A program made the position numbers and the translations under genes. A DNA stretch of 34,961 nucleotides from an uncultured Clostridia bacterium (GTDB taxonomy: Bacteria; Bacillota; Clostridia; Christensenellales; UBA1242), in NCBI GenBank assembly GCA_946610655.1, contig CAMOCH010000004.1, positions 1 to 34,961 on the forward strand, read 5' to 3'. The notes below the pieces were generated by a model. The model searched no databases, was not told the origin of the DNA, and was given only the letters and a program-made list of their open reading frames with translations. Below are positions 4,445 to 34,961 of the stretch, in pieces. Every line of letters starts with the position of its first letter. Within the stretch, counting starts at the first letter, position 1.

Positions 4445-4477
4445 TTTTCGACAAAATATTATATAAAAATATATAAT
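4445..4477 (+). promoter_or_regulatory. Putative Spo0A-box promoter of the pdaB-like gene
   Basis: TTTTCGACAAAA (4445-4456; reverse complement TTTTGTCGAAAA). TCGACA 4448-4453, 18-nt spacer, TATAAT 4472-4477. Confidence 0.55.
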
Positions 4478-4552: not shown

Positions 4553-5317
4553 ATGAAAATTGTATGCGTAAAAGCAAAGCAAATAACAGCAATAATAAGT
4601 TTAGTTTTGGTGTTTGTAATGCTGGCAGTGGTAACAAGTGCAACAACAAGTTATAGGGTGTATTTTGGGCATGCAAGCAGGCTGGTTCCAATTTATTCAG
4701 TAAAAACTGATGAGAAAAAAGTGGCATTAACGTTTGATGCTGCGTGGGGCTCTGACAAAACAAGTCAAATAATAAAAATATTAAAAGATGAAGGGTTAGA
4801 AGGCACATTTTTCTTGGTTGGTTTTTGGGTTGAAGCAAATCCCGATAAAGTTAAAGAAATTGATGAAGCAGGGTTTGATATTGGAACACATTCTAACACA
4901 CATCCAAAAATGAGCACACTTTCAAATAGTCAAGTAACAAACGAACTTGTTACAAGCTGCGAACTTATAACAAACATAACAGGCAAAAAAATTCGCTTTT
5001 TCCGTCCTCCATACGGAGATTATAACAACCAACTTATTACTTGTGCATCGAACTTGGGATTGCAAACGATTCAATGGGATGTTGACAGTTTGGACTGGAA
5101 AGGTTTGTCTGCTAGTCAAATACTAACGAGAATCGAAACAAGTGTTAAAAATGGTTCAATAATACTTTGTCATAATAACGCTGATCACATCGTTGAAGCT
5201 TTGCCACTAATTATTAAATATTTAAAATCACAGAATTATAAGATTGTGAAACTTAGTGAACTTGTTTATGAAAGTGATTATACAATTGACAATAATGGCT
5301 TACAAATAAAAAAATAG
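4553..5317 (+). CDS. PdaB-like polysaccharide deacetylase (NodB domain, sporulation type)
   Basis: N-terminal signal/TM segment; NodB motifs KKVALTFDAAWGSDKT, GTFFLVGFWVEANP, GFDIGTHSNTHPKMSTLS, RFFRPPYGDYNN, IQWDVDSLDWKG. SD AGGAGATG upstream. Confidence 0.85.
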   Translation: MKIVCVKAKQITAIISLVLVFVMLAVVTSATTSYRVYFGHASRLVPIYSVKTDEKKVALTFDAAWGSDKTSQIIKILKDEGLEGTFFLVGFWVEANPDKVKEIDEAGFDIGTHSNTHPKMSTLSNSQVTNELVTSCELITNITGKKIRFFRPPYGDYNNQLITCASNLGLQTIQWDVDSLDWKGLSASQILTRIETSVKNGSIILCHNNADHIVEALPLIIKYLKSQNYKIVKLSELVYESDYTIDNNGLQIKK

Positions 5318-7918: not shown

Positions 7919-7952
7919 AAGCACTTTCTTCCAATTAAATTATATAAATTTT

Positions 7953-20000: not shown

Positions 20001-23000
20001 TCAATTGCTTCAATATCAACATCATCACTAGCAGCCACATATCCAATGTAAAGTTTTCCAGAAAGTTCTTTGTCAAAGTAGCCACTAATATTCAATGATT
20101 TATTGTTTGCGTCATAAACAACATGAATGTTTCTGTTTGCACTATCAAGTCTGTTTTCTTCTGTTGCAATGTTGTTAACCATTCCATCAACATATTGAGT
20201 TTTAACAACAACAATAGGGTCATCTTCAGTTTCTTTAAACAATATCATTTCGGCACCAGAAAGACCAGTGTCTGAGGTTAATTGGTCACTGAAAGTGTAG
20301 CCATTTATTGTTAAGTAAACAGCAACGATTTCTTTTTCTACAACATTGATTGATGTGTTATTTTCATTAATAAGTTTTCCTGCATAAATTGTTGCATTAA
20401 TTGTTTTTGCAAGGTTGAATCTGTTAGAGAATGTTTCTCCACCAGTTTGCTCAAAAATAACACCATCATCTTCAACACCATCTTGAGTGATGATGAAATC
20501 GTTAAGAATGCTATTTCCACCAACTTTTAATCCTTCATTATCAAATCTGTAGCTACCACTTGGTGTTATTGTTGCAGTAACTTTTGAAGTTACGGTGAAC
20601 ACACCAGAAACGCTGGTGTCTGTTACTTCAATAGGGTTGTTTAAACTGTCATAAATTGTGTTGAAGTTAATAGTAAATGCATTTTTCTCATAAGAGAAAG
20701 TTATTTTTTCTGCTTTTTCAAATATTGCAATAATGTTTGTATCAGCATAAGCAGTTGTTTCAAATGGAGTCTCAATTTGAGTGCTCATAAGTTGCAAATC
20801 AGACCATTGTTTTTTGATGATTGTGTTATTATTTTCATCAGTGGTTGTTTTTTCTATTAATTTTTGTTCATACCAACCAGTGAAAATGTAAATTTCTTCA
20901 TTTTCAGAACCTGCGTTCAATGTGATAGAGAATATACCATTTTTATATTCAAACACATTTTTAATTCCATCGCTAGTAGTGATTTCCAATCTGTTAGAGT
21001 TGTCACTCAAAAGCATTTGAGTTTTGGTTACATTGCCATCAGAATCTGTTGTAGTTTTGCTGTAGCAAAGTCCACCAAGAGCCATAATTGTGTTTTGAGC
21101 AAGAGCAAAGTCATCGGCAAACATGTCGTCGATGTTAGTGTTTGTTGTATAATAACGATTATATGTGTTGCTTTGAATAGCTTTTGTTTCTTCAATTTTG
21201 TCTCCGGCACCAACATATGTATAGTTTCCTTCGTAACCACCACGAGTCCAAATTTGTTGAATAAAGTCAAGGCCTGCTTCTTTTAATTTGACTGCAGCAG
21301 TGTCAGGTTCTTCATAAGAAGAGTAATTAAAATCAACACCATCATATGAATCAATAACTTGAATGCTTGTTGAGTAGGTGTAGATAGGAATAGATGAAAG
21401 GTTAATAAAGTTTGTTGTTCCATTTTTAATTGGAGCAATACGGCTATCTGCTTTGAAATAATCAGAAATAACATTGAATATTTGAGTTTGTTTTGTTAAA
21501 TGAGCTTTTGTTGTGTCTGCTTTAGAAATAACATAAGCAACAGAAAGTTCAACATTATATTCCTTATCAATAAATTTGAAAAAATTATTTAAATTAGAAT
21601 ATTTAATAACGCCATTTTCGTCTTTTTCATAGAAGAGACTATAATCAATATTTCCTTCTTCATCTTTAAAATGTTTAAAGGCAGGGATTGTTTCAACAAG
21701 ATTTTCTAAGTATTCGATTCTTAATTCGATGTTTCTTCCATCAACATCGAATATTTTAATATTGTTTTCGTCATAGAATTCAAACATATTAGAGTAGGTA
21801 ACAGAATAATTTCCAGCAAGAACGTCACCAACAATAGATTTTTCTCTTGTTGGGTGAACTAAATATTCTGGGTTATAGTTGCTATAATCACTATCCATGA
21901 TAGATACAACAATATTGTTGACATTTTCATTTTTATAGTAGACACCATTAGTATAGTTGATTTGATCAACTTCTTCATGGTCAAAAGCCAAATCTCTGTC
22001 AAATGAAACTTTAAATACATAATAGAAGTATTCATCACGTTCATCTTCATTTAGTGTCATGTTTTGTTTAATATAGTTATCGCAAGGATACATAACAGGA
22101 ACAAGAACATGGCTTGTTATCATTCCAAGAGAGTGAATAGTAAGTTGTTTGTCATAATGAACTTTAACAACAATATACACATTTGTGTCAACATCAAAGA
22201 ACATGTTGTTAAGGTTTAAATCTTCTGGAGCAGCTTTTTCAACAGTATCAAGCCCAGAAGTTGTTATTCTTCTGTTAATTCTATAGTTGTTATATTCTAT
22301 TTGTCTTTGAAGGCTTCCAGCATCATCAGGATCAGTTTCTGTTTGGTCAACAGTAAAGTATGAACTAAAGTTGGCACCAACATTTGAATCAACATAGTAT
22401 TTGCCGTTTGTGCCACAAATAGCTGCATAATCTAGATATCTTGTTTCGGCAGATTCATCTGCAGTTAAAATAAAGTCATGAAGATCAATGCCTTCAACCA
22501 TATAGTCTGTTTGAAGGTTTCCATTTTTATCAGATCTTGCACCAATTCTTTTTGAAACAGAACCTTCTTCATTAGATTCAACAAAAGAGTTGTAGTAAAC
22601 AGAAACAACTTCAATGTTTTCAGGGTCTGGTTCTTCGGCAAAAATAAATGCACGATAAACTTCAATAAATTTAGCAACAATTCTCATGTCTGCGTGAAGA
22701 GTAGAAATGTACAATTTATTATCTTTAAATGTAAGGTTAGCACTTTCTTTTGAACGATAGAAATTATTACCATCTTTGTAAACTCTTTCGGTTCCAATAT
22801 AGTAATAATAATTATCTCCACTGGTTATTGTGGTTATTGCATCATAGTGAGCTTTTGTTTCATGTTCACCAGTATATTCTTCTGAATATGTGCGATCTTT
22901 GTAGTATTTTTGGCTTGAACCATATCTATATAATGGATACCAGAATCCACCTTCATTGTAGTATTCACCTCTAACTGCATCAAGAGCTGCGTCACTAACA

Positions 23001-26000
23001 ATAGCCTCATCTGTGTTTGTAACAGTGCCATCTTCAGTTATATGAATTGCTGAATAATAGTAACGTCCTGTGTCTTCAGAGTAGAAATCAGTAACATAAT
23101 ACCAAGTGCCATCAATAAGTTTAACTTCCTTAATAATGTCAGTATATGAATCATTAATACTATCATCAAGTTTAACATCAGAAGCTGTCCAAACGCCAGT
23201 TTCTTCATTATATTCAGCCAAATACCAACCTTCAAGACGATATCCAGAACTTGCATTTGCACTGATTACCATTTGTGTGTCACGGTCGAAGTATGATGTT
23301 TTGAATTGAAGAGAAGGGTAAACGATTTCTTCACCATCTTCATCAAAATATGAATACAATTCGCCAGCTGCAATGTTTGAAAGTTTGCTATACATATAGA
23401 TATCGTTGCCTTCACGATAAGCATAAACGTTACCAGTGTAAACAGCAACAGAGTTATAGTTAATAACTTTTATGTTCGCAAAATGATAAGCATTGGCATT
23501 ATCAGTGTTTTTCAATGCATAGTCAATGGTTTTAGAGCCGTTTTCCATTGTTTCAAGAATTCTTGCAAAATCCAATGGTGATGTTGCATAAAATTCTCCA
23601 GTTTCGCTGTTATAATAAACAACATAATTTTTTTCTTCTGGGTTAACTTTAGATTTATCATTAATATGTGTTACGCCAAATGCATAAGAAATATAGTCAA
23701 GAATATTTCCTGTGCTGTTTTCTTCATAACCAAAATTATTAAAGCTGCTGATAGATCTTGCTTTTCCATCAAGATAGAATCCATAAGAGCCATTTGATGC
23801 AGACAATACAATAAGTCCACGTGATTTATACGCACCATCATTCACATCTGAAATAACTTCAGTAAGAATATTCTCTTCGTTTATTTTTGTAAGAGATTTT
23901 CCATTATCACTAAGTATGTAAAATTCACCATTATAAACAATGATGTTAACCTTTTTAAAGTTAGGATATACTTCGTCTGAATAGTATTTATTGTTTCTAT
24001 AAACACCAGTATGGAAACCTTCAAAATAGAGCATAGGAACAATTTCCAAATCTTTAAAGAAGTATTTGGTTTCAGTTCCCTCGGTTGTTTTAAAGTAATC
24101 AACAAAGTAAGCAGGGTTGCCACTCTTATCAATTTGAGCATTGCCCTTGTTTTCAAAATTAGAAACATCATAGTTTATGGCATTTCCTGAATTTGCATTG
24201 TAAACAACGTTAACGGCACCACCCAAGTTATTTGGACCATCAACAACGCTTGTTGCAAGATTAAGAGTATAAACTCTTTCATAAACAGGCATAAAGATGA
24301 AGTATCCTGCTTCGTTAGATTTAAATCTAAGAACAGCATTATAAATATCATGGCTTTCACCAATTGCTGCCATATTTCTATATATAACTTCGCTGTTATA
24401 TCTGCTGAATATTTCCCAACGTTTAAATCTATAAATTACATTTTCGTTTTCGTTAATATTTATGCTAACAACAGGGCTAGTAACAAACACAACGCCTTCT
24501 TTTCCAGTGAGGAAATATGCATCGCTTGAGTTATAGCTGTTTTGAATGTTAATTGCATCTTCGAACCAGAATGATTGAAGTTTGCTGTCAAATTGTATAG
24601 TTTGAATAGCGTCAGCATTAATACGATAAGCATTTGTAACGCCACCGATCAAAACTTCATCATAATTATATGTGTTTGAACTATCTGAAAATCCACTAAT
24701 ATAAATGTTTTCAACACCTGTGCAGACAGAATTATCATTTTTCAAAGAGTCAGAATAAAGGTTAATAATTCCGTTATCTGCAATGTAATAAGTGTGAATA
24801 TCAAAATATGGAACATTTTCAAGAGATTCTGCACTTGAAGACCAAATGTTAAGTTCATTAGAGTTCAAAAGAAGATATTCGCCATTTTCTGCCAAATAGT
24901 ATAGAGGGGTTTTGTATCTTCCGTTTTCGTCCAAGTCAACAGTAGAATATAAGTTTGTACTGTTATCATTCATTCCAATATTTAAAACTGTGATGTAAGT
25001 GCCATCAAGGTATGGAACATAACCATCATGAGTTTTAGGTTGTCCATTTTCATCATAAACAATATCACCATTTTCATTAGTTTCGGTAATTTTAACTTTT
25101 GTGTATGCAACAATAGGTTGAAGAGTACTTGCCATTACAACATAATAAAGTTTATCCATCTTGCTTTCGTTAGTTAAGTTTGTGATGGTATCTTTAAATG
25201 TTATTGTTGAAAAATCATATATTAAATCAAGTTCAGCAGAAGCAATTGCGTTTGTTAAAAGTTCAACATAGTAACCGTTGACAATTTCAAGACCAAAATT
25301 AAGAACAGCTTGTTCTTCTGCTTTGTGTCTAACTTCAAAGCTAAATACCGGGTTGGTGTATGGAGCACCTGCAAGAAGACTAACACCAGGGAATGCAGAG
25401 ATAACTGATTTAACCGTTGTATAGTCTATGTCGTAGTAGTTATTAACATCGTCAATAATGTTTTCAGAATCGCCTTCATTATAGTAATCGAATGTAGGGT
25501 ATACGTCTGTTTCACCATTTCCAAGAAGAACAACTTTTCCAATAACATGAATGTCTTCACCAGTTGTAAGAGTTGCTTTTCTAACAATATTGTTTGTTGA
25601 ACCAGGCAAGGTTGCTGTTAATGTTTCAGCATAAAGTGTTATACTTCCATCGCTGCTTGTGTATGAGTAGTCTGTAGAAATATATTTATAGCTAACTCCA
25701 TACAAAATGTATGTTGGTTCGTTAACATCGTCAGAAACTGTTTCTGCATCAATTAAGCCAACGTAAAGTTTTTCTCCAAGGGTTGCTTTATCAACATAAG
25801 AACTTGTTGAAGATGAGCTTTCAACAATGGTTTTATAATATTCCCTTTGAACATAAATAGAGTAACCAGAATTTGTGGTGTTAAATGTTTTTGTACTGTT
25901 ATCAACAAGAGTAACTGTAACTGTTTGTCCGTCATCACCTTGAAGGTTTATTATTGGACTACCATCTTTCATTTCTATTGGGGAAATAAGAGGGTATCTG

Positions 26001-29000
26001 TCAATTGAACCATTGTCATTGGTAATATAAACATATTCATTTGATTGAGCATAATATTTGCCATCATTAGCCAAGTATAATGTAAATCCAAAAGTTCCAG
26101 GTTGGTTACTTTGGTCTTCTGTTTTAACAATATAAACATTATACAAAATGGTTAGTTCATCGTAAGTTTTTCTGTTATCAATATAGTAGTATTGTTTTTC
26201 ATCTTGTATAACAGAGCTAACATGAATATTTTCCAAAATTTTGTTATCTTTTTCTTGATTTTTGAATTCTGAGCTTAAATTTCCAACATATGAAGAAATT
26301 GTTGAACCTTTATAAGAATATAAAGACCAATATGCTTTTCCTGTGTTTGTTGAAAGGACATAAGTTTTGTCGTTAACAGAATATATTCCGTTGCTTATAA
26401 TTGATTCAAATGAATCAGTTGTTGGAGTTTCTTCAGAGCTAATAACTTGACCTTTATTGTTAGAAACAAGAACTGTTCCTTTAAGTCCATAGTTATGTCT
26501 ATCAATATTTTCAATAGGAACACCTTCTGTGTAAATTTTTTGAACATAGTGTTTTTCACTTTTGTTTGCATAATCAATAAATTCTATAACGCTATATTTT
26601 TTGCTTGTGTAGTTTTCTATTTCTTCATAGATATAGATGCCATCTTGTTCGTAATAGTGTGGTGTTGCATAGTTTGTATCTTCAACATAAACATCTTTTG
26701 TTGCAACATATGTTCCGTTTTCTGCATAGTAATAGTAGAAGCTGTTGTTAGCTCCTTGATTTCTATTAAATTTAACAAGTTTATCTAATTCGTAGAATGC
26801 CTCATCAATTTTAATGTAAGAACCTTCGTCATCTTGAACAAATTGTGAAGATTCCTCATCATAACTATATTTTGTAAAGCTGCTAATTGTTGCAAAGTTA
26901 GAAGTATTTTTTGTTTTTGCATCGTCTAAAACATAGTATTCAGTATTTTCACTTGCAGAGTTAACAGGGGTATAGTGTAAATCATCAACCTTAACAAAGT
27001 GTTGTTTTGTGGCGTTTGCATCTTCAACTACAGAGGTTGCAATGTAGTCACCATTTTCATCAAAAGTATAGATGTTTCCATCTTTTACATATTTGTTAAC
27101 ATAATAGTCACCATCAACAACATATTTGCCACCAATAAGAATATATTTACCATCGCCTTCTACGTAGTAAACAAATGAGTTGATGCTTGTTGTGTGAGTG
27201 TCTTTATCTGTGTTTACATATTGAGAAATCTCTGCTCTTACTGGAGCATTAAGTTGTTTAACAAGATAGTAGTAGTCTGCAATTATGTGACTAACACCAC
27301 CAATTGCATTAACAAAATTAGCAAAGTCAGCATCGGTTGCATGTTGAATAATAAGGCTACCAAGTGCAATAATATATCTGTGGTCATAAGAGTAAGAGTT
27401 TTGTTTTGCAGTTTGTTTGAATTCATCATTAAACCAGTTTACTTCAGTTGAAGAGACTAATTTTCCAACTGGTTTTGTGTAATAGTATTCAACAATTGGG
27501 TTTCCAATATTATCAAAATATGAGTAAGAGTTAACATCATAATAGATGTAGATTGGAACATTTGGTTCTTCATCTGTATTTGGTTGATTTGCTTCATATT
27601 GCAATCCGGTTTCTTGATTATAATATAATCCTGTTGCATAAACGTCTGCAACAACGTCAATTGCAGTATTTCTGTAGTTGTCAGGAGAATAAACGAATGT
27701 TCCTTCTTCATCTTTGTCATCATATTTAGCTTTATTTTCGTAGTAGGTTAAACTGTAATTAACTTGTACAACTTCTGAATTAGGAACATCTTCAGAATTT
27801 TGAGACAAGAACACAAATGATTCTGTTTCGCCAATTTCTTTCAAATCAGCTTCTTGATAAATGATATTATCAATTTTTGTGTAAGAGTAAAGAATGAATT
27901 TGTCGTCTTGACTAGAAGAAGATTCTTGACGCAAAATTGTTGCTTTTAAGCTTTCAGTATCATCAGCAGAAAGTAGAGTGTAGTAGTATAGATAAGTATC
28001 GTTTCCACCTTGAACAGCTTGATAATCACGGCGAGAAAATTCATATGGTTGATCATCATAATAAAGAGTGCTTTTTGCGGTATTAAGAACTGCGCCAGAA
28101 ATTTCTTCAACAGTTGTGTAGTAATATGTTTTAATAACAGTTCTGTTGATTTCATCATAAGTAATTTTGCAAGTGATGAAATCGGTTTTGTTTGAATTAC
28201 TATTTTCGTAAACAATTTCGCCAATGTTGGTTACAGACTCAACGTTGTATGATTTTAATGTGTAGTTGCTAGGAAGAAGCAAAGATATGATTACTTTTGA
28301 TGTTGTGTAACCATATTTATCTGTTTCTTCTGTTGTTGTACTTATAACTTGATAGCGAACAGAATCGTTGGTAACAGGGTCAACGATTTTTTCATCTTCC
28401 ATGCTAACAGCTTTGTTTCCTTTGATAACAAAAAGGTTTACAGCAACTTCTGTATTTGTTTCATATTTTGTCCCATAAATTGCATTACCAATTCTGTCGG
28501 CATAAAGTGTTTCGTTTTTAAGTTGATTAAGAACATAAATTGAGTTTGAATCATCAACAAGTTTTGTCATGTATTCAGAGAAGAAAGTGTAGTAGTTATG
28601 GTCATGTTCATTTTCATCAATTATTGATTCTTTGGCAAAAGAAATATATGTATCATATGCAAGTCCATTAATTTCAAAATGTCCATTTTCATAAACAACA
28701 AACATTCTTTCAATTCCCATACTTGCAATATGAGCGTCATAATCATATACGTCATCAGTTGCAAGCTCTTGGATTGTGTTTGGTTGTGTGCTAAACACTG
28801 CAGCAAAAGGTTTAGAAGCGCCGTTCTTCCAAATATAAATATCAACACCATCGAGGATTGTTGAAGTTGTTGCAATAAGGTCTTCAGCATCATAAATGTT
28901 GCCGTTCAAATTAAAGTTTTTAACTTTGCTAACATTTGCATAGAAAGTTTTCAAGTTGTTGCCAGAGTATGAAGCAACAGATAAAGTGCCAATGTAATAG

Positions 29001-30391
29001 TTATTGTTTCTAACAATTGATTCTTTGTATGATTTAGTGTTATTAGTTGTATTTAAATTTGTGGCTGAACCAATTTCAACTTCTCTTGCACCAAGAGTTT
29101 CTTTTGCAAAACTTGTAAGACAACTTTTATTCATGAAATTGCTGTCATAAGCATATTTCTCATTATTAACTTCTGGTAAATATTCACTCAAAACATATGA
29201 ATTTTGAGCTTTAACAACGTTTGTCCATTTTTGAAGAGCATAGTCGCTGTTTATGTCCATTGATCTTTGAACATTAACAACTTTGCCTTCAACAAAATAT
29301 CCGGTGAGTTGTGTGTATTCATCGCCAGTAGAAGCTGCTGTTTCAGAAGCAAAATAGTATTTATTTTTGTCGTAGGTGAGAGCTTTGTATTTGTTTTCAC
29401 TTGAGTTAGAACAGTTTGCACTAAAGTTGAGTTGATAAACGTTAAATTTGGTTGGAGCAGTAAAAATTGAGTCTCCACGGTTTTCTGAACTAGAAAGTGA
29501 TGAAACTCTAATATATCTGCTTTGAGAACCTTTGGTTAAGATAGGGTTGTAAACAAGTCTAAATCTGCCATTTTCTGTAACATAAACTTTGGCAACATTA
29601 TAGTTTTCGGCAGTTTGTACAACTGTATCGATTTTATATTCTTTGGTATCGTTATCAAAAACGGTTTTTGTGTAAGAAATAGTAAATAAATCAGAAACAT
29701 CAACGCCTTCTTTTAGAGAGAAGAGCTGAGTTTTGTTTGTATAGTCAATGTAGAGATTTTCATATTGAGATCTGTTAAGTGTTAAAGTGATTCTTGTTGT
29801 TGTGTTGTCATAGTTGGAAATTTCGTAACTTGCAAATTTTGGAAGGTAGCGGCTATTTAAATTATTTAATGTTGTGCCATTTTCAACAATGCCACCACAA
29901 ATCTTTTTAAGAGTTGCGTATTCTATGCTGTAGTAAGCGGTGTCATCATCAGCTTTTGTCCAATAGCCTTTTGTTGCATCAAAAGTAAGTCCTTTAACAA
30001 CTGAAAATTCTGAATTTACAGAAACGTCTGCGTCTGAAGAAAAACTAACGGCATAGTTAGTGCTTGAGTCTGCAGTAATGTAAGCTATTTTCTCATTTTG
30101 TGGGGCATCGGCACTGTTTTCAAAACAGTCATCAAAATAATAAGACAAGTCCCACTCAAAAGAACCGGTAGATTCGTTCACAGAACCATCAGTTGGTATT
30201 TTGTTATAGTCAACAGAAACCATAGGTATTCTTTTTCTACCTTGAGCATCTACAGTCTCTGATGAGGTGTCAGCTTTATTTCCACCAAAGTCACCCCAAG
30301 AGCAGGCAACTAATCCAAATGAACAAATGAATGTAAATAAGGCTGCTAAGATAAATAAAATTTTTGTTTTTTTGTTACGTTTGTTTTCCAT
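8003..30391 (-). CDS. Giant (~7,462 aa) predicted surface lipoprotein with divergent InlB-type GW[YF] modules and Tyr-rich repeats
   Basis: Single uninterrupted ORF (track 8003..30406). Start revised to ATG 30391 because AAGGGA lies just upstream of it. Lipobox GLVAC. GWY/GWF/GFY modules such as IYIFTGWYEQ, YKFIGWFTI, FVGFYFGKDG, FAGFYVNGEFYDL, YLFTGWYQE, LEGWYLAEY. Confidence 0.85.
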   Translation of the reverse strand: MENKRNKKTKILFILAALFTFICSFGLVACSWGDFGGNKADTSSETVDAQGRKRIPMVSVDYNKIPTDGSVNESTGSFEWDLSYYFDDCFENSADAPQNEKIAYITADSSTNYAVSFSSDADVSVNSEFSVVKGLTFDATKGYWTKADDDTAYYSIEYATLKKICGGIVENGTTLNNLNSRYLPKFASYEISNYDNTTTRITLTLNRSQYENLYIDYTNKTQLFSLKEGVDVSDLFTISYTKTVFDNDTKEYKIDTVVQTAENYNVAKVYVTENGRFRLVYNPILTKGSQSRYIRVSSLSSSENRGDSIFTAPTKFNVYQLNFSANCSNSSENKYKALTYDKNKYYFASETAASTGDEYTQLTGYFVEGKVVNVQRSMDINSDYALQKWTNVVKAQNSYVLSEYLPEVNNEKYAYDSNFMNKSCLTSFAKETLGAREVEIGSATNLNTTNNTKSYKESIVRNNNYYIGTLSVASYSGNNLKTFYANVSKVKNFNLNGNIYDAEDLIATTSTILDGVDIYIWKNGASKPFAAVFSTQPNTIQELATDDVYDYDAHIASMGIERMFVVYENGHFEINGLAYDTYISFAKESIIDENEHDHNYYTFFSEYMTKLVDDSNSIYVLNQLKNETLYADRIGNAIYGTKYETNTEVAVNLFVIKGNKAVSMEDEKIVDPVTNDSVRYQVISTTTEETDKYGYTTSKVIISLLLPSNYTLKSYNVESVTNIGEIVYENSNSNKTDFITCKITYDEINRTVIKTYYYTTVEEISGAVLNTAKSTLYYDDQPYEFSRRDYQAVQGGNDTYLYYYTLLSADDTESLKATILRQESSSSQDDKFILYSYTKIDNIIYQEADLKEIGETESFVFLSQNSEDVPNSEVVQVNYSLTYYENKAKYDDKDEEGTFVYSPDNYRNTAIDVVADVYATGLYYNQETGLQYEANQPNTDEEPNVPIYIYYDVNSYSYFDNIGNPIVEYYYTKPVGKLVSSTEVNWFNDEFKQTAKQNSYSYDHRYIIALGSLIIQHATDADFANFVNAIGGVSHIIADYYYLVKQLNAPVRAEISQYVNTDKDTHTTSINSFVYYVEGDGKYILIGGKYVVDGDYYVNKYVKDGNIYTFDENGDYIATSVVEDANATKQHFVKVDDLHYTPVNSASENTEYYVLDDAKTKNTSNFATISSFTKYSYDEESSQFVQDDEGSYIKIDEAFYELDKLVKFNRNQGANNSFYYYYAENGTYVATKDVYVEDTNYATPHYYEQDGIYIYEEIENYTSKKYSVIEFIDYANKSEKHYVQKIYTEGVPIENIDRHNYGLKGTVLVSNNKGQVISSEETPTTDSFESIISNGIYSVNDKTYVLSTNTGKAYWSLYSYKGSTISSYVGNLSSEFKNQEKDNKILENIHVSSVIQDEKQYYYIDNRKTYDELTILYNVYIVKTEDQSNQPGTFGFTLYLANDGKYYAQSNEYVYITNDNGSIDRYPLISPIEMKDGSPIINLQGDDGQTVTVTLVDNSTKTFNTTNSGYSIYVQREYYKTIVESSSSTSSYVDKATLGEKLYVGLIDAETVSDDVNEPTYILYGVSYKYISTDYSYTSSDGSITLYAETLTATLPGSTNNIVRKATLTTGEDIHVIGKVVLLGNGETDVYPTFDYYNEGDSENIIDDVNNYYDIDYTTVKSVISAFPGVSLLAGAPYTNPVFSFEVRHKAEEQAVLNFGLEIVNGYYVELLTNAIASAELDLIYDFSTITFKDTITNLTNESKMDKLYYVVMASTLQPIVAYTKVKITETNENGDIVYDENGQPKTHDGYVPYLDGTYITVLNIGMNDNSTNLYSTVDLDENGRYKTPLYYLAENGEYLLLNSNELNIWSSSAESLENVPYFDIHTYYIADNGIINLYSDSLKNDNSVCTGVENIYISGFSDSSNTYNYDEVLIGGVTNAYRINADAIQTIQFDSKLQSFWFEDAINIQNSYNSSDAYFLTGKEGVVFVTSPVVSININENENVIYRFKRWEIFSRYNSEVIYRNMAAIGESHDIYNAVLRFKSNEAGYFIFMPVYERVYTLNLATSVVDGPNNLGGAVNVVYNANSGNAINYDVSNFENKGNAQIDKSGNPAYFVDYFKTTEGTETKYFFKDLEIVPMLYFEGFHTGVYRNNKYYSDEVYPNFKKVNIIVYNGEFYILSDNGKSLTKINEENILTEVISDVNDGAYKSRGLIVLSASNGSYGFYLDGKARSISSFNNFGYEENSTGNILDYISYAFGVTHINDKSKVNPEEKNYVVYYNSETGEFYATSPLDFARILETMENGSKTIDYALKNTDNANAYHFANIKVINYNSVAVYTGNVYAYREGNDIYMYSKLSNIAAGELYSYFDEDGEEIVYPSLQFKTSYFDRDTQMVISANASSGYRLEGWYLAEYNEETGVWTASDVKLDDSINDSYTDIIKEVKLIDGTWYYVTDFYSEDTGRYYYSAIHITEDGTVTNTDEAIVSDAALDAVRGEYYNEGGFWYPLYRYGSSQKYYKDRTYSEEYTGEHETKAHYDAITTITSGDNYYYYIGTERVYKDGNNFYRSKESANLTFKDNKLYISTLHADMRIVAKFIEVYRAFIFAEEPDPENIEVVSVYYNSFVESNEEGSVSKRIGARSDKNGNLQTDYMVEGIDLHDFILTADESAETRYLDYAAICGTNGKYYVDSNVGANFSSYFTVDQTETDPDDAGSLQRQIEYNNYRINRRITTSGLDTVEKAAPEDLNLNNMFFDVDTNVYIVVKVHYDKQLTIHSLGMITSHVLVPVMYPCDNYIKQNMTLNEDERDEYFYYVFKVSFDRDLAFDHEEVDQINYTNGVYYKNENVNNIVVSIMDSDYSNYNPEYLVHPTREKSIVGDVLAGNYSVTYSNMFEFYDENNIKIFDVDGRNIELRIEYLENLVETIPAFKHFKDEEGNIDYSLFYEKDENGVIKYSNLNNFFKFIDKEYNVELSVAYVISKADTTKAHLTKQTQIFNVISDYFKADSRIAPIKNGTTNFINLSSIPIYTYSTSIQVIDSYDGVDFNYSSYEEPDTAAVKLKEAGLDFIQQIWTRGGYEGNYTYVGAGDKIEETKAIQSNTYNRYYTTNTNIDDMFADDFALAQNTIMALGGLCYSKTTTDSDGNVTKTQMLLSDNSNRLEITTSDGIKNVFEYKNGIFSITLNAGSENEEIYIFTGWYEQKLIEKTTTDENNNTIIKKQWSDLQLMSTQIETPFETTAYADTNIIAIFEKAEKITFSYEKNAFTINFNTIYDSLNNPIEVTDTSVSGVFTVTSKVTATITPSGSYRFDNEGLKVGGNSILNDFIITQDGVEDDGVIFEQTGGETFSNRFNLAKTINATIYAGKLINENNTSINVVEKEIVAVYLTINGYTFSDQLTSDTGLSGAEMILFKETEDDPIVVVKTQYVDGMVNNIATEENRLDSANRNIHVVYDANNKSLNISGYFDKELSGKLYIGYVAASDDVDIEAIDINAWYINEYKEFTEQMDPRIKLYSLAGVNDLFRICFNYTMDNLELYDAESEDAIAVDADYVNLFNKNFSLGPNIVGYVASAVINRNSTLNVSYKTIESLDTIDELTNIAKDNGKEQSAIDYLSYGVINWTGKKVDYETETIMSETTVNGTHILVNDVYYEIATLTKYNYDGETYTVDSEGIYVEIGGEYYSLATQTKYVETTHTVEIVSNNGKAYFYGVEDNTFNFSSSTKIKLKTDLEYYEDGTNLYKFIGWFTIVGDKVYIVSNSLTADITGGGNYFAIYAKTVKLDETHVYTKENGEVVAALTDINGYISVDSNHKLETVPAKGEDGEIVKSYVSISNSANYNDHFVAVIGSKIITTVDVNEGYIIEDLTVSFKNDPDNIEETKINTNYKTTTFASEFTVIDKDFSIYSNIVKSATLSITKIYYNSISMISAGELCDYSVARLDDNRLPSGVSNIDNIPYKKGDVITLSFSNTDDYGLIGFYANGSLIGQLSEYTVETNNGAKTYSTTYTVEGDTTIEVRITHFAKVETKTQSINLSTGKIIDTNKQQVYISYIDHYTEEEINKQINLISPIETILSGTVVTFTTSSTKSTDAFVYYSKLVIEGGSTSEVIESTENTISRAIIYDATNQTANRASATYIANYVTAYEVTVTRSINGIDENDVISGINPQDIGVFTADELRSLLDVYVTYTNQYGEETTIVLGSKKSATISAQSKDSIVVTTKIDENVANRYGCYMIQNAKDSSSKKEVPTNGVVSFEDPSKGDIDVVYYPSRTITLSRKLDNQFSNNSSLTIAAKDDSQGTTFLLGNEQTSTFPKLNDSSITDPKLKIVTLADAIFVRISYLSAQYQFAGFYVNGEFYDLYDEEYVKLRDGDIYLYVVNNTQNKKAGNKNLTDDVNINITACWYTLSTIRTYIMLDGSYLNKETTTDIGENIVNTYGDATAIESDFLASKLTMRLYGNRLTGLTAGDANLEGAFNTALQLTLATNGKLEKYMSNTSLGLIASTYAGYHFVGFYFGKDGDSIDKFEKLEAIDENGEVVFANTLTSFIPAEDITKASNYVIVAKYLTSYKVSQGVTIFNDENSKFEISEEGKEKYIELNGTPLLMFDETLTYLTQVKKVGTTFVALDADDIAVNYENTDKSYSTINYDYYYPQLSNYIALKQPTKDNYKFIGIYLNGKLYNIVGKYIVNGEEHLVVDLSDFITTNDNIYDIHNIYAEFRYVKEVDFVVRIGVDNTNDIDKIANSALDNIEIEIVTYNPYVLNSATNTYGVTTTTTYTNSEQDANSYWNKDNQSLYIKLHLPIGTIVNVTVYDKTNNDKTVKPTIGELKYYGWFMYTNQSIAGSNTAINYTTNCSFTLSESIDIVAQFPGTDVPGKTTDTQFAYRFIGNAFGGTKTFDPTKSSDIENSDIAKALTAFFNTIAAGNATNGVVEYNSYKFTFTTLANTNNLVLHITYKNGENIYEADYLFTGWYQEIKLANTKRYMFVTNTLGLDYTDAVMPEQMVNAINMMAEFVEISTIKISINNANTVDFTNISQNYNSFVNYNVLGGTTSKEPSNTLQILSSTLDDNGFMIVKTLYGSQFMYRTKVVFGYYNSAENASFNPDSNAYDDKYVAQTFETRTTVHDDETDTDTYLYTNEFKTTKTKYKFTIYQSENILSTITASATQQIAAPSTNTTAATLDRGTAGFAVSSFAKASLCFDNVVTLMDNTNDDIEIVEEDFEIDETDITNNNQQTDFVIELVAPDVASTNAEIVITIVRQNGLIDTITITKAEKAIFVSSDGTQKEITLVKILDELTESIAVKYKLVFSDAEIAKLALSSNITIAINTNNCISESLLNVVLTRITTNTDGDEITTTIKTEKSNNLTYITTNDDSSATLLAVITIVNKFALSVSDNDNNAGIAETRFADQQYTATISAKDNYSVEDITFSMKIGDNTVSKNLSDLLKLYNGIDCVSLADAYNYAMQKETIFNPASEDNWFIEIKAQEQEIIIEYSYNSKTYFTATLTFEFTDTADVNNYAYVTKINSTWALKHNVEISTTYEHVTNVNAYAQYEKLEKNTTTNSFENSTTVDNPKLVYILDKWFYTIDDNDNYVVINKLNAAFKDEIENEEFAFNGYIYGGKYIKVTEDAEDTGILVNDGTTTCSDNIEMIAQFTEKLGINFALEIEYYKPGNPLETPINYINVVENQTTYTNFETEEAVNTVALKINDAISITMIDTHEYFRFVEWYIYYGDNKLLTIENAALLLDSNFVINTLAKTAIDELEMTIDEINISDFVIIAKMKEQVTQINIEYDVAGEVFTIVTKNGSDIVSATINDGNEHLIDGDQAIFAQRIEKEESYKLTIAYSKDHAPQFTVIAASYQTITGKVANTTFIGSNSAVRAVSKDGTISTTRYYKLNGFKDNLGKIELIQYDSVANAMQFANIVNSTTYTLNTTNLYLIEAGRATTYNSQFTAATISINGQTTHSNYFTSKDEMNYAALSFLVEEGTIVTINFENPGIYEYSSVPTTYSYRKMALSPDLMLSDILATFYANGYQTTYDIDNPVTAWKQQIITEEKNYYTSLNEYSNNNILDQESTYTFIANSNASFIADHIGIFEDQRYFLSLVIGADESTQFIFDDTNKDSVVKNIYTGENFVITSAKKGTDVSYVIKENFEYKLDDYNKIHSISLYDYYLTTDDVYNNEDYQYETVDGKKYLTIDGCTFEYEEKPINENPYDSTQNIHQKTVIVYKSGTLPAGFNMNGANYVYKDTRIQYTLANSIISRFSESNVSTDVNFANTKISLTQPGYQVAIGLVNNKVISTEISSAKKYMTNDKLFENDDSTILQKLAECLGEEESDFNHGWIPSDERIAYVVEDHGGNLKTTDLLTTMQVKKYKKVTLLAEKLDNKVFYGFVIISQNDKIHCASEIPVQNVFNDETLKYALYGGKSSIGILPASSSKVATVTSEDGTQKTYYAASYDSIDGDAIIIALYQSKVNVLNLSKMTFDEDKIENTVSAKFTPTPTISNSGRSTDESTNKGKIKVESLLYTSDTVYVQLLISANGFAEYKGATVKDSNSSIAAIYSESTVIEAADNFTNANSYYENIYRNSYNEEQGTTSLLDSQIKKEDDKTITYGYLRPERLFIEDYSIRNSELKLSVNPSNINYLYLYFADPYTQQQINKNDDITIYLYFADIYYTVNSEVTEYTGKKPDSVDGKTPVGVQTPYIGYSATVMATEGWKNPSYDGKYVTNEKDPYIYTWIDCNGNRLAYPVKVTSSMIKINPDDENDPILLTRTDGSADYPILTSKPDVDKVTKDSIPNTTIKYCDMVDQVYDKVASVFDYLEIDETTIKVKDNLFSVTIDGTTINSGSMKGTFSKLTTNNNVLFIKSSINNIKFMVMADIIEDSLKFEFYVYANENSGFPDFEIAAVTGVATEYGIAYQHTVTDDFDSSKYSIEFNIENYNFDDETKKECIGYTSCIAHCDRASTSTMYGSKVNGNNFSGTFYGDSLIYDEATKTMIRDTEKYPSMNLYTLMSFERVSQNVSAKLNVAKTEDSQLIVDFISPADTNKGNAAYINAMKEYFNQSVKTECDHPNYLSGKVDLIDGYDLYVIKNALTYVEAIENALRTMRLSTNIQAQLVYIMTEIISFNPTNNINFGTYSKSINHTSVQSEINERTDKYYSGMPQSGTIFDYTSSTKENFANILRYTLKLDALATRLEKSDDLTFYRINVYENFKNSITFEEGQNNLGGYENDYNKMFGLKGYKATIQVDTNKQIDYRYFGNALNYGDAIISTVKLTEHVYPHRDRGIWEDEIRGYVYIDNATSTFEGYTNGELNGKTITTYHDNDYANSDSFIKNTVDCNKWTKLSKWASGITNRGAKYAGTYLLTTHSGICPVSEEFYDTDNTIFTAGVTLKLYVDKVKTTNLDAEHPAIVRNIIVVSAIAVASVVVTVATWGAGSAVIGALALGAKAAFAIHAATAAIGAVAIGYAVYEGVCLIDSAINNDNNRASALQQFVSSLDFSDFPS
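8090..8275 (-). other. C-terminal 62-residue Ala/Gly/Val-rich hydrophobic segment of the giant protein (2-3 predicted TM helices)
   Basis: IIVVSAIAVASVVVTVATWGAGSAVIGALALGAKAAFAIHAATAAIGAVAIGYAVYEGVCLI, followed by a 28-residue polar tail; no LPXTG. Confidence 0.7.
30302..30391 (-). other. Lipoprotein signal peptide and lipobox of the giant protein
   Basis: MENKRNKKTKILFILAALFTFICSFGLVAC: basic n-region, hydrophobic h-region, LVAC lipobox; Cys codon at 30302-30304. Confidence 0.8.
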
Positions 30392-30445: not shown

Positions 30446-30547
30446 AATAATAGTATTTTAACATATTTATTTGTCACATCAAAACGAATTTTAAAAGTTT
30501 TTATATTTTTTTATAAAAAATAATATAAATTTTTATAACAAAGTGAT

Positions 30548-30580
30548 ATAGTAGCACTTATTGTATATTTTTGTCGAAAA
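30548..30580 (-). promoter_or_regulatory. Putative Spo0A-box promoter of the giant gene
   Basis: - strand TTTTCGACAAAAATATACAATAAGTGCTACTAT: extended 0A box TTTTGTCGAAAA on +, -35-like TCGACA, 18-nt spacer, -10 TACTAT. A second TGTCGAT lies at 30592-30598. Confidence 0.5.
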
Positions 30581-30652
30581 TTGTAAAAATTTGTCGATGA
30601 AAATAAAAATTTAATAGTGGACAGAGTGGTGTCTATTATTAGTGATTATTAT

Positions 30653-30666
30653 AGAACAAACGTTCT
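30653..30666. promoter_or_regulatory. Putative LexA (SOS) box
   Basis: AGAACAAACGTTCT, perfect dyad matching the Gram-positive LexA core GAACRNRYGTTC, next to a TATTAT -10-like hexamer (30647-30652). Confidence 0.5.
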
Positions 30667-30777
30667 AAAAACAAAATAAAAATAAATGTCACCAAGTTAA
30701 AAAAATGATTGAATTTTTATTATAAAATGAAATTGAAAATCAATCAAAAACTATGATGAGTTAAAGGAGGAATACAA

Positions 30778-31377
30778 ATGAGTGTTATTTCAAAAAACTG
30801 CAAAATTGATATAAAAAATGTTAAAAACAACACTAAAAGTATTGAAAATGACAAAAATTTTGCAAAAATTGAAAATCAAAAAATTGAACTTATCTCATGG
30901 ATAAGAACTCTTTTATGTGTGCGAAAATACCTGCCAAATATAATAAATGTGCTTGATGAGTTGGCAATAAAAACAGCAACTAACTCAATGTATGAATCTT
31001 GTATATTTGGTGATATGAAAAACGGAACATATAATCAAATAGAACGCCTTATGGAAATTAATGAAAGAAAAGTTTCTATTATTAACATTAAACTTTTTGT
31101 TGATAGCATAATTAATAGTTTGGAAGAAAAATATTTGGACTTTGTTAAATATAAGTTCATTCAAGGCAAGAGTAATAAAAAAGTGGCAGAGCTTTTGTCT
31201 GTCACAGAAAGAACATTGTGTCGTTGGCATAAAACGGTTTTGGAAAAGTTGTATAAGTTTTGTAATGTAAATGGCTATTCTTTAAAATTTATAAAAGAGC
31301 AAATTTGTCATGAAAAATGGATTATTCCGCATTATCAAAAAAGCAAAAAATTGGTTGAACTTTTATATGCATCATAG
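30778..31377 (+). CDS. Sigma-70 region 4-like / ArpU-type phage regulator
   Basis: Strong SD AAAGGAGG. C-terminal HTH LEEKYLDFVKYKFIQGKSNKKVAELLSVTERTLCRWHKTVLEKLYKF; position before terminase genes fits a phage late-gene regulator. Confidence 0.6.
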   Translation: MSVISKNCKIDIKNVKNNTKSIENDKNFAKIENQKIELISWIRTLLCVRKYLPNIINVLDELAIKTATNSMYESCIFGDMKNGTYNQIERLMEINERKVSIINIKLFVDSIINSLEEKYLDFVKYKFIQGKSNKKVAELLSVTERTLCRWHKTVLEKLYKFCNVNGYSLKFIKEQICHEKWIIPHYQKSKKLVELLYAS

Positions 31378-32304
31378 CAGGTCGTCATCATCAACATAGT
31401 TATAATCTGGAAAAACAACTTCATATTCGTCATCTATGTTTTTTGGAGAAGGTGTTTTTCTTTTTCTAATAAAAGATTTAGGTATTTTTTCTTCAATTTC
31501 GTTTTGTGTTTCTTTTATTTCTAGTTTACGTTTTCTCGCTTCAAAAACAGCTTTTATTATGCTTATTAAAAAAAGGATAACAAAAGGAGTTGAAATCAAA
31601 ACAATTAAAATTATTTTTATTGGCTCATTGATTGGAATTGAATTTGATTGCTCTTCAATTATGTCTTGATTTTCAATCTCTAAGTTACTAGGAATATGAG
31701 AAAGATTTTGAGTGGCTTCGCTGTAAATGTAACCTTCATACAAACTGGTGACATTTGATGCAGGGGTGTATCTTGCAAAATACCACAGGTTGCTATTACC
31801 ACCAATTGGAATCTCTCCAACAGTGCTGGCAATATATTCGATTTTTTTTGTGCCGGCAGAAATGGTAGATAAAATATTGCTATTTGAATCAGCTCTTGAC
31901 CAAATTTGTGTTCCTGCAAATTCGTTGATGTCAAAAGTTATGTTAGATAGGTATGGTGTTGATGGAATAAACGAAACAATTTCAAAAGTGTTAGCAGCAG
32001 CGTAACCGGTAAATGATGAGTATTGAACTTTATAAATTTCATCATTAATTTTAGAAATTATTGAAACAAAGTATGTGTTAGGAACATAGAACAAAATGTT
32101 GCTGCTGCTTATATCTTGTGTTTTATAAATGGCACAATTATCACCAACTTTTGCGTATAAAATTTTTTGAGTTTCATATGCAAACGTTTCGATTTTTTTG
32201 CTTTGTAAACAGCAAAAACTGACGTTAAATATTTGTGAAAAAAATATGCTGAGAAAACTAAAAAATATTATAAAAATTTTTCTTAATAAATGATAATTTT
32301 TCAT
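31372..32304 (-). CDS. Signal-bearing membrane protein with SH3-like extracellular segments, one C-terminal TM and an acidic cytoplasmic tail
   Basis: N-terminal hydrophobic IFIIFFSFLSIFFSQIFNVSF; two segments ILYAKVGDNCAIYKTQ...YKVQYSSFTGYAA and TQIWSRADSNSNILSTISAGTKKIEYIAS...LWYFARYTP...YEGYIYSEA; TM IKIILIVLISTPFVILFLISII; tail VFPDYNYVDDDDLL. Confidence 0.6.
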   Translation of the reverse strand: MKNYHLLRKIFIIFFSFLSIFFSQIFNVSFCCLQSKKIETFAYETQKILYAKVGDNCAIYKTQDISSSNILFYVPNTYFVSIISKINDEIYKVQYSSFTGYAAANTFEIVSFIPSTPYLSNITFDINEFAGTQIWSRADSNSNILSTISAGTKKIEYIASTVGEIPIGGNSNLWYFARYTPASNVTSLYEGYIYSEATQNLSHIPSNLEIENQDIIEEQSNSIPINEPIKIILIVLISTPFVILFLISIIKAVFEARKRKLEIKETQNEIEEKIPKSFIRKRKTPSPKNIDDEYEVVFPDYNYVDDDDLL

Positions 32305-32545: not shown

Positions 32546-33976
32546 ATGGATAAAAATTTAATAAAAAAATTGATGCAAATTAAAGCAGAATTGTTGGATC
32601 GAAATTATGATGCTTTAAATAAATATAATAGTGGTAAAATTGTTCATCAAAAACAACTAAATTTTCATAAATCAAATAAGAAAAATAGATGGGTTTTTGG
32701 TGGCAACCGAACAGGTAAAACAGAGTGTGGTGCTGTTGAAACAATTTGGCTTGCAAGAGGCAATCATCCATACCGAAAAAATAAACCAAATACTGTTGGC
32801 TGGGTTGTTAGTCTTTCGACCAGAGTGCAAAAAGAAGTTGCTCAAGATAAAATTTTGAAATATTTAAATAAGTCTTGGATAAAAGACATTGTTATGAAAC
32901 AGGGCAAAAAGTCGTCACCAGAATATGGAGTGATTGAATGTATTGTTATTAAAAATGTGTTTGGCGGGCTTAGTGAAATATATTTTAAAAGTTGTGAGGA
33001 AGGCAGAGATAAATTTCAAGGGGCATCACTTGATTATGTTTGGTTTGATGAAGAGCCTCCAGAAGATATTTATTATGAGTGTTTAATGCGAGTTATGGAC
33101 AAAAATGGAGATGTTTTTGGAACGATGACTCCTCTTAAGGGTATGACTTTTGTTTATGATGTAATTTATTTAAACAAGTATAATGACCCAGAAGTTTACT
33201 ATGATTTTATGCAATGGGAAGATAATCCATTTTTGGATAAAACCGAAATTGACAGGCTGTCTAAAACGCTCAGTAGTGATGAGCTTGAAAGTAGGAAATA
33301 TGGCAGATTTGTTTCAAATAATAATTCGCTTGTTTATAAAGAATTTGATGAAAAGGTGCATGTGATTGAACCATTTGATATTCCAAAAGAATGGCAAGAT
33401 AACATTTCGATTGACCCAGGTCTCAATAATCCACTTTCGGCACATTGGTATGCCACTGATTATGATGGAAATGTTTATGTTGTTGCTGAGCATTTTGAAT
33501 CTGGCAAAGATGTTACTTATCATGCAGAGCGAATTAAACAAATTTCAACAAGACTTGGTTGGAAAAGAGCGAGTAATGGAATGTATGCAGCACTGATTGA
33601 TAGTGCAGCAAATCAAAAAACACTTGCTAGTCAAAAAAGTGTGACTGAACTATTTTATGAACATGGAATTTTGGTTAACCCAAAAGTTAATAAAGATATG
33701 TTCACGGGCATAAACAGGGTAAAGTCATATTTAAAAAACGCAAATGGTGAAACCAAACTTTTTATCTTTGCAAACTGCACAAATTTAATTCAAGAAATAA
33801 AGAACTATTATTGGAGCGATGGTGATAACCCAGTTAAAAAAGATGACCACTGTTTGGACGAACTTAGATACTATATTATGAGTCGTCCAGAGCAAAACGA
33901 AAAGCCAAAGTCACAAATTGAAAAAGACAAACAAAGGTTATATCAAAGACTAAGAAGACAACATATGTATAATTAG
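32546..33976 (+). CDS. Phage terminase large subunit (TerL)
   Basis: Walker A VFGGNRTGKTE, Walker B LDYVWFDEEPPE, GTMTPLKGMT coupling-like motif, nuclease motifs SIDPGLNNPLSAHW, LIDSAANQ, CLDELRYYI. Confidence 0.9.
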   Translation: MDKNLIKKLMQIKAELLDRNYDALNKYNSGKIVHQKQLNFHKSNKKNRWVFGGNRTGKTECGAVETIWLARGNHPYRKNKPNTVGWVVSLSTRVQKEVAQDKILKYLNKSWIKDIVMKQGKKSSPEYGVIECIVIKNVFGGLSEIYFKSCEEGRDKFQGASLDYVWFDEEPPEDIYYECLMRVMDKNGDVFGTMTPLKGMTFVYDVIYLNKYNDPEVYYDFMQWEDNPFLDKTEIDRLSKTLSSDELESRKYGRFVSNNNSLVYKEFDEKVHVIEPFDIPKEWQDNISIDPGLNNPLSAHWYATDYDGNVYVVAEHFESGKDVTYHAERIKQISTRLGWKRASNGMYAALIDSAANQKTLASQKSVTELFYEHGILVNPKVNKDMFTGINRVKSYLKNANGETKLFIFANCTNLIQEIKNYYWSDGDNPVKKDDHCLDELRYYIMSRPEQNEKPKSQIEKDKQRLYQRLRRQHMYN

Positions 33977-34106: not shown

Positions 34107-34394
34107 ATGGAAGAAAAACTAAAAGGGCAAATTAAAAAGATTTTAATTAAGCTTGCAAATGGTTATGAATACTCTGAAAAAGTTGAAGAGTATGTTGTTA
34201 AAAAAGACACCGAAGAGTTGGAACTTGCAAAGAAAAAAATCTCCACGCACTACATTCCACCAGACATGCTTGCAATAAAAATGCTTTTAGAATTTTCTGA
34301 CCAAAATTCAGAAGTTTTGTCTAATATGACAGATGATGAATTGATTGAACTTAAAAATAATTTAATTAAAGAATTAACAGGAGGTGATGATTAA
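34107..34394 (+). CDS. Small protein resembling the C-terminal tail of phage terminase small subunits
   Basis: ILIKLANGYEYSEKVEEYVV...KKKISTHYIPPDMLAIKMLLE resembles the TerS tail pattern (GYEYEE...kk...yiPPDttAqifwLk) without an N-terminal HTH. Confidence 0.5.
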   Translation: MEEKLKGQIKKILIKLANGYEYSEKVEEYVVKKDTEELELAKKKISTHYIPPDMLAIKMLLEFSDQNSEVLSNMTDDELIELKNNLIKELTGGDD

Positions 34395-34580
34395 TTGCTT
34401 TATAAAAATAATTTTCCACAAAAGTGTGATGTAGATTTATGTCAAAACATAGCCGAGTATTCACTCTGTGTTGGGAAAAAAGGAAAGATTAATTTTTGTG
34501 AAAAATGCTTAGATAGGTTATATAAAACAATCAAACTAGAAAAAGGGGAAACGAATGGAAGAAAAAAAGTATCTTTATAG
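34395..34580 (+). CDS. 61-aa putative zinc-binding phage mini-protein
   Basis: TTG start behind strong SD AGGAGGTG; Cys pairs CDVDLC and CEKC. 3' end overlaps the portal start (34554). Confidence 0.5.
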   Translation: MLYKNNFPQKCDVDLCQNIAEYSLCVGKKGKINFCEKCLDRLYKTIKLEKGETNGRKKVSL

Positions 34581-34961
34581 TGAAGAAGAAGATAAGGTTA
34601 TTGTTGATTTTGTGATTGAAGATTATAAAAACAGACAAAGAGAAAGAAGGAGTCAAGAATTAACTTGGGATTTAAATATTAATTATATGCTTGGAAATCA
34701 ATATGCATGCATAAGTCCAAAGGGAGAAATTGATATTTTTGAAAAGAATTTTTATTGGGAAAGTCGAGAGGTGTTTAACCATATTGCTCCAATTATAGAA
34801 ATGCGTCTTGCAAAACTTGCAAAAGTTAGACCAACGGCATCAGTAAGGCCAAGTGGCACAGAGCAAAGTGATTTATATTGCGCCAAGCTTGCAAAAAGCA
34901 TATTAAATGGAGTGTTTAATAAAACGGGACTTTCAAGACTTATAAGCAAAGCAACAGTGTG
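34554..34961 (+). CDS. Phage portal protein, 5' partial (runs off the window)
   Basis: Not in the ORF track because it lacks a stop. SD AAAAGGGGAA then ATG at 34554: MEEKKYLYSEEEDKVIVDFVIEDYKNRQRERRSQELTWDLNINYMLGNQYACISPKGEIDIFEKNFYWESREVFNHIAPIIEMRLAKLAKVRPTASVRPSG..., P22-type portal N-terminus pattern; follows TerL. Confidence 0.7.

Follow-up and report, generated by a model that had tools for sequence, protein, structure and literature searches.

A candidate Spo0A site upstream of a phage-type activator gene in a GTA-like module of gut Clostridia

In an uncultured Clostridia bacterium of the order Christensenellales, a sequence resembling a binding site for Spo0A lies in a 370-bp intergenic region that is common to two genes: a giant lipoprotein-like gene and, divergent from it, a phage-type activator gene. 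Which of the two would such a site control, and what would that control serve? The region belongs to a contig stretch of 34,961 nucleotides, here called the window. An earlier note had proposed that the giant gene is switched on by the sporulation phosphorelay. We favor another reading, at a probability of roughly 0.6, in which the box is a Spo0A site in the control region of a domesticated, podovirus-like module resembling a gene transfer agent (GTA), and Spo0A and LexA together control that module. The features first needed are as follows.

30569..30580, minus strand: 0A box TTTTCGACAAAA; its TGTCGAA core is 30572-30578 on the plus strand
30592..30598, minus strand: second near-box ATCGACA (TGTCGAT on the plus strand), starting at 30598, 20 bp from the TTCGACA at 30578
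30548..30577, minus strand: earlier promoter candidate TCGACA-18-(TGC)TACTAT, with TCGACA at 30577..30572, TACTAT at 30553..30548 and TG before TACTAT
4445..4456, plus strand: second exact 0A box, upstream of a PdaB-like sporulation deacetylase gene (4553-5317)
8003..30391, minus strand: giant lipoprotein-like gene, ~7462 aa, likely start 30391, with an AAGGG ribosome site and a signal peptide with an LVAC lipobox
30455..30482, minus strand: best-supported promoter of the giant gene, TTGATG-16-TAAAAT, with extended -10 TATGTTAAAAT
30778..31377, plus strand: gene for a RinA/ArpU-like phage late-gene activator, 199 aa, with a predicted sigma region 4-type DNA-binding fold

The motif TTTTCGACAAAA, the overlapping TCGACA, the 18-nt spacer and TACTAT are all present on the minus strand where the earlier note had placed them. 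Spo0A boxes of Bacillus and Clostridioides difficile have the same TGTCGAA core and often occur as several near-consensus boxes (PMC3485338). Judged from the window or the genome alone, the site is not significant: TGTCGAA occurs 2 times in the window versus 2.5 expected, and the 0A box was not enriched genome-wide at up to one mismatch (69 matches, compared to 122 for the reversed pattern). At the same tolerance, TTTTCGACAAAA occurs 3 times in the window versus 1.1 expected. A genome scan for TTTTCGACAAA-N15-18-TANNNT returned only 2 places, both in the window (this site and the pdaB site at 4445). Four other exact genome matches to the 11-mer were set aside, as they lie in or beside unrelated genes, two of them within a repeat at contig ends. 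That repeat, TTGATATTTTTTATCATTTTCGACAAA, stands at two contig ends of the window's genome (the starts of C33 and C70), contains an exact 0A-like 11-mer and is probably dispersed.

We compared the 360 bp upstream of the activator gene at 69 non-redundant loci of the host family, with expectations taken from dinucleotide shuffles. TGTCGAA was the most enriched of all 7-mers, found in 34 of the 69 regions (1.74 expected) and in 14 of 25 genera. It also ranked first among its 630 permutations (34 regions; the next counts were 15, 14 and 12, including shifted forms of the same site; the mean was 1.4). When one genome was taken per genus, the 7-mer occurred in 11.8 of 25 genera on average, compared to 0.49 for the mean permutation. 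Its density upstream of the activator was 1.54 per kb, compared to 0.25 per kb for intergenic DNA elsewhere and 0.08 per kb within genes. Near-boxes around the exact boxes prefer spacings of ±10 and ±20 bp; the near-box reported exactly 20 bp away in the window is there, and its phasing recurs across the family. The exact box is missing from half of the family's regions. As an internal control, 7 of 15 other loci of the family have an 0A box in the same orientation ahead of pdaB, and the window has one at 4445.

These measurements bear on the possibility that the box has no function and is kept by shared ancestry or by chance in AT-rich DNA. The single window, which is not above chance, and the missing genome-wide enrichment would both fit such an origin. 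However, the regions share <25% of their 12-mers yet retain the 7-mer and its phase, no such recurrence is seen for permuted 7-mers of equal composition, and the box recurs upstream of pdaB, so that we regard a functionless box as very improbable. Taken alone, the window's site is weak evidence and proves nothing; the comparison of family sequences convincingly lifts it far above chance, and the earlier identification of a Spo0A-type box in a regulatory region holds. In other families of the order, the 0A box is weakly enriched, in only 5 of 34 regions. We therefore rejected an extension of the box to these families and claim the Spo0A link for the host family only.

The earlier proposal hinged on the host having spo0A, and an intact Spo0A is encoded in the window's genome (G000; 852 kb, 82 contigs, 91% complete). 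Located on C45, it matches PF08769 (E 9e-42), exceeds the TIGR02875 cut-off, and retains the receiver aspartate region and the SKVERAIRHAIEVAW recognition helix. The sporulation gene set also includes sigH beside rlmB, a spoIIAA-spoIIAB-sigF operon, a sigK-like factor and SpoIVA. Across the host family, Spo0A is found in 112 of 116 genomes and SpoIVA in 110 of 116. In many of these relatives, a genome near 1 Mb encodes 2 to 6 proteins with a Spo0A DNA-binding domain, a few of them just 110-150 aa long; the window's genome encodes one. No exact 0A boxes were found upstream of spoIIA, sigK, spo0A or sigH in the host genome; a published study likewise reported that perfect boxes are missing from early sporulation genes such as spoIIAA and spoIIE (PMC3485338). 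The Spo0A targets of Bacillus and C. difficile are sporulation and metabolic genes, whereas the candidate target here is a phage-derived module.

Could the box nevertheless serve the giant gene? In that case, the box and its overlapping -35 would form a Spo0A-activated promoter, and the giant protein would be a sporulation-phase surface protein. The arrangement is suggestive: TTTTCGACAAAA overlaps the -35 and is followed by 18 nt and the extended -10 TGCTACTAT, the same geometry is seen at the pdaB gene (4445), and an 0A box precedes the start of the giant gene by 160-195 bp in G000, G002 and G034. However, TCGACA-18-TACTAT is not conserved in G002, G034 or the other giant orthologues, while a different promoter is. 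All nine giant orthologues share the extended -10 TATGNTAAAAT at the corresponding upstream position, one of them with a base change; in six or seven of the nine, TTGNNN precedes it by 16-17 nt (read by eye). The window's copy is TTGATG-16-TAAAAT (30482-30455), which the earlier note had named as an alternative, and its extended -10 lies ~95 bp downstream of the earlier candidate. Moreover, the giant-bearing genomes G082, G106, G102 and G023 have no exact boxes, and boxes persist in genera without the giant gene.

The box instead follows the divergent activator, including in genera without the giant or without a divergent gene. It is present beside a non-divergent neighbor in G100, G137, G095, G021 and G033, where the activator is therefore the sole plausible target. 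A Spo0A-type box in a host with Spo0A and a sporulation gene set survives from the earlier proposal, while its target, the giant gene, is probably wrong, and the TACTAT of its promoter was not found at the corresponding position in relatives. We judge a Spo0A-activated giant promoter to be improbable. In the window's genus, G000 and G002 keep the 20-bp box pair, ~190 bp upstream of the giant gene's start and ~210 bp upstream of the activator's; with the box ~200 bp from both start codons, the target within that genus is ambiguous. The pair lies in one intergenic region serving both genes, and so the giant may be co-regulated through it.

The giant gene has a restricted distribution. Its open reading frame spans 8003-30406, amounting to 2.6% of the genome, and the protein has C-terminal hydrophobic segments; Pfam searches of the giant protein and of p596 gave no match. 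Orthologues occur in some genera of the host family only and diverge fast, with ~40% identity within a genus (G000 versus G002). The gene stands between the activator and a minus-strand gene at 6134-7924, whose relatives elsewhere sit directly divergent from the activator, according to weak matches.

The activator protein was assigned from profile matches and a predicted structure. Among 18 relatives, 16 match phrog_36 (E 1.7e-10, a profile without a curated cut-off), 14 match phrog_248 'transcriptional activator' and 3 match TIGR01636 phage_rinA. The curated RinA cut-off was not reached (TIGR01636 E 3e-7 at best, in the 3 of 18 relatives), and the window's protein has no TIGR01636 match; we therefore call it 'RinA/ArpU-like' only. 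The predicted model (pLDDT 88) contains a domain like sigma region 4, with an rmsd of 1.3 over 64 residues at E-values >0.2. The family matches and this predicted domain make the protein resemble RinA/ArpU activators; unlike the arrangement of those activators, here an opposite-strand gene separates the activator from the terminase gene.

Between the 0A box and the activator gene lie three further elements.

30617..30635, no strand assigned: imperfect palindrome GTGGACAGAGTGGTGTCTA, conserved, upstream of the LexA-box promoter
30654..30665, plus strand: perfect LexA (SOS) box GAACAAACGTTC, directly after a TATTATA -10-like element (30647-30653) facing the activator
30697..30726, plus strand: TTAAAA-18-TATAAA, a weak consensus, positioned as the TTGACT-17/18-TATAAT of relatives

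The last of these is probably the activator's proximal promoter, judging by its position. The palindrome, a putative operator, precedes the -10 of the LexA-box promoter by ~12 nt. Many relatives have a counterpart, TGGACA-N6-TGTCCA or TTGACA-N5-TGTCAA, similarly spaced from the LexA box downstream of it. In most of the regions upstream of the activator (L105-L148), TTTTGTAAAA/TTTTACAAAA blocks and a TGNCA motif right before the -35 recur and may be additional operators.

The LexA box at 30654-30665 adjoins a promoter-like element, and a LexA domain protein is encoded at C62 of the host genome, the two features that would place the activator in an SOS regulon. GAAC-N4-GTTC boxes occur in 15 of 69 regions of the host family. 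In other families they occur in 11 of 30 regions, and there GAAC ranks first of 256 possible half-sites. The LexA box is thus spread over families while the 0A box is scarce outside the host family, a pattern that points to SOS control as the older of the two and to Spo0A control as a feature of the host family.

The sign of Spo0A control is suggested by the position of its box. In 10 loci, several of them from a single genus, the -35 of the activator's promoter (TTGACT/TTGACA-17-TATAAT) follows the box at a distance of exactly 54 bp; in others this distance is 55-78 bp. If Spo0A instead repressed the phage-like module, particles would come only from non-sporulating, DNA-damaged cells. There is precedent in phage phi29, which Spo0A silences in cells entering sporulation and whose phage-type promoter region likewise contains Spo0A sites (PMC9437464). 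In addition, LexA would already provide induction, and the 0A box lies inside the promoter in G003 and near it in some loci. However, the commonest position, 54 bp upstream of the -35, suits an activator site and not a blocking site. Phi29 is a virulent phage suppressed by Spo0A; the module here is chromosomal and vertically kept. Position would favor activation and the phi29 precedent would fit repression (PMC9437464); we consider repression unlikely.

Downstream of the activator, the window contains the start of a phage-like head and packaging module.

31372..32304, minus strand: exported or membrane-anchored protein between the activator and TerL, with orthologues in the same place in the loci examined
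32546..33976, plus strand: terminase large subunit TerL, intact (PF03237/PF17289, phrog_2)
34107..34394, plus strand: small ORF between TerL and portal, its position kept in G002 and G025
34555..34961, plus strand: N-terminal part of the portal protein (phrog_156), which runs off the contig and continues on C1

The exported protein occurs in the host family and in other families of the order, and has no Pfam or PHROGs match. In an alignment read by eye, TerL has Walker A (GGNRTGKTE), Walker B (FDEE) and nuclease-like acidic motifs. The module is complete in the host genome. On C1 of the same genome, which is colinear with G002, it comprises portal, scaffold and capsid genes, 216-aa, 471-aa, 821-aa and 667-aa virion/tail-like proteins, a holin-like gene and a membrane protein, followed by RNase J, O-methyltransferase and U32 peptidase genes, with a sigK-like gene adjoining. 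The portal matches the P22 type and the capsid matches phrog_14242 (E 3e-61). No small terminase, endolysin or tape measure was clearly identified among the module's genes, and the holin-like gene is the one candidate lysis gene among them. An Rfam search of the window gave no match.

TerL is a single-copy gene in 109 of the 118 host-family genomes, and it occurs in 41 of 42 genera; three genomes show two fragments, and five of the nine TerL-negative genomes still have the capsid gene. Across the order, TerL is present in 64 of 121 genomes from ~18 families, nearly always once, and absent from the rest; in the class, close relatives occur in only two further families. Relatives in cultured phages have <31% identity. 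The named records come from uncultured Clostridia and include one 'Candidatus Stercoripulliclostridium'. In many cases gyrA, pdaB and an ssb-like gene lie upstream of the locus; some genera have other neighbors there. Two variations were noted: G003 has two adjacent capsid genes (C2:8026-10367), and in G104 the module is split, with capsid and TerL ~39 kb apart on C2.

An ordinary prophage sitting at the locus by chance would also bring phage late genes, that is, activator, terminase, portal, capsid and holin-like genes. However, the module is present in one copy in nearly all genomes of the host family and in many families of the order. Host genes lie directly on both sides, with the same flanks in G000, G002 and G025; the ORF lists of these three genomes show no integrase or replication genes between the host genes, and no repressor genes were found at the locus. 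The head genes are as conserved as housekeeping genes: between G000 and G002, identity is 80-86% for TerL, portal and capsid and ~81% for RNase J and U32 peptidase (the giant has ~40%). A chance prophage is accordingly very improbable. The head and packaging genes appear to be kept vertically, as judged from single-copy near-universality and flanks, and without integrase or replication genes, one of the features expected of a GTA. Known here from its genes, the module is termed GTA-like, and membership of the gene transfer agents is not claimed.

To our knowledge, few gene transfer agents are known outside the Alphaproteobacteria. A podovirus-like GTA in gut Clostridia was first shown in 2026 (PMC12946183). 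This FpGTA of Faecalibacterium (Borodovich et al. 2026, PMC12946183) is a ~10 kb operon with podovirus-type terminase, portal, scaffold and capsid genes and no replication genes; it is near-universal in its genus and produces particles in late stationary phase. The same study assigned three cases of GTA-like packaging to Christensenellaceae (PMC12946183). FpGTA is the closest known system, and the module is alike in size, gene content and podovirus type when compared by description. FpGTA has a putative small terminase, and Spo0A is unmentioned in its report (PMC12946183). Two features set the module here apart from FpGTA: the Spo0A and LexA boxes of the activator gene at its head, and its retention in ~18 families. 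A literature search for gene transfer agents linked to Spo0A in Clostridia found nothing relevant.

By circuit, the nearest known system is RcGTA of Rhodobacter capsulatus. Its activator gene, gafA, has a conserved promoter site to which CtrA binds, and there is also SOS input (PMC6363796, PMC6473078). By analogy, the two circuits would share a host response-regulator site that is conserved at a direct activator's promoter despite diverged flanks, together with SOS input. RcGTA is siphovirus-like and alphaproteobacterial, and its activator GafA and response regulator are unrelated to those here.

Under the favored reading, in which Spo0A and LexA control the GTA-like module, Spo0A~P would bind the tandem boxes as nutrients run out, while LexA would repress until DNA damage and then release. 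Bound Spo0A~P and LexA release would turn on the activator, which would in turn switch on the terminase, portal and capsid genes. The particles would package DNA, most simply host DNA, like a gene transfer agent. The divergent giant gene would use its own conserved promoter (30482-30455) and may be co-regulated via the shared region.

The SOS and 0A boxes at the activator suggest that these gut bacteria tie the release of virus-like particles to starvation and DNA damage. A broader proposal, which we offer tentatively as possible, is that an ancient GTA-like system has been passed down vertically throughout an order-level group of gut Clostridia and that one spore-forming family has brought its production under Spo0A, so that cells opting for sporulation also build DNA-packaging particles. 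If true, capsid-borne gene exchange would be an old, regulated trait of these bacteria, and exchange would be linked to the decision to sporulate, in a way similar to the link between RcGTA and CtrA.
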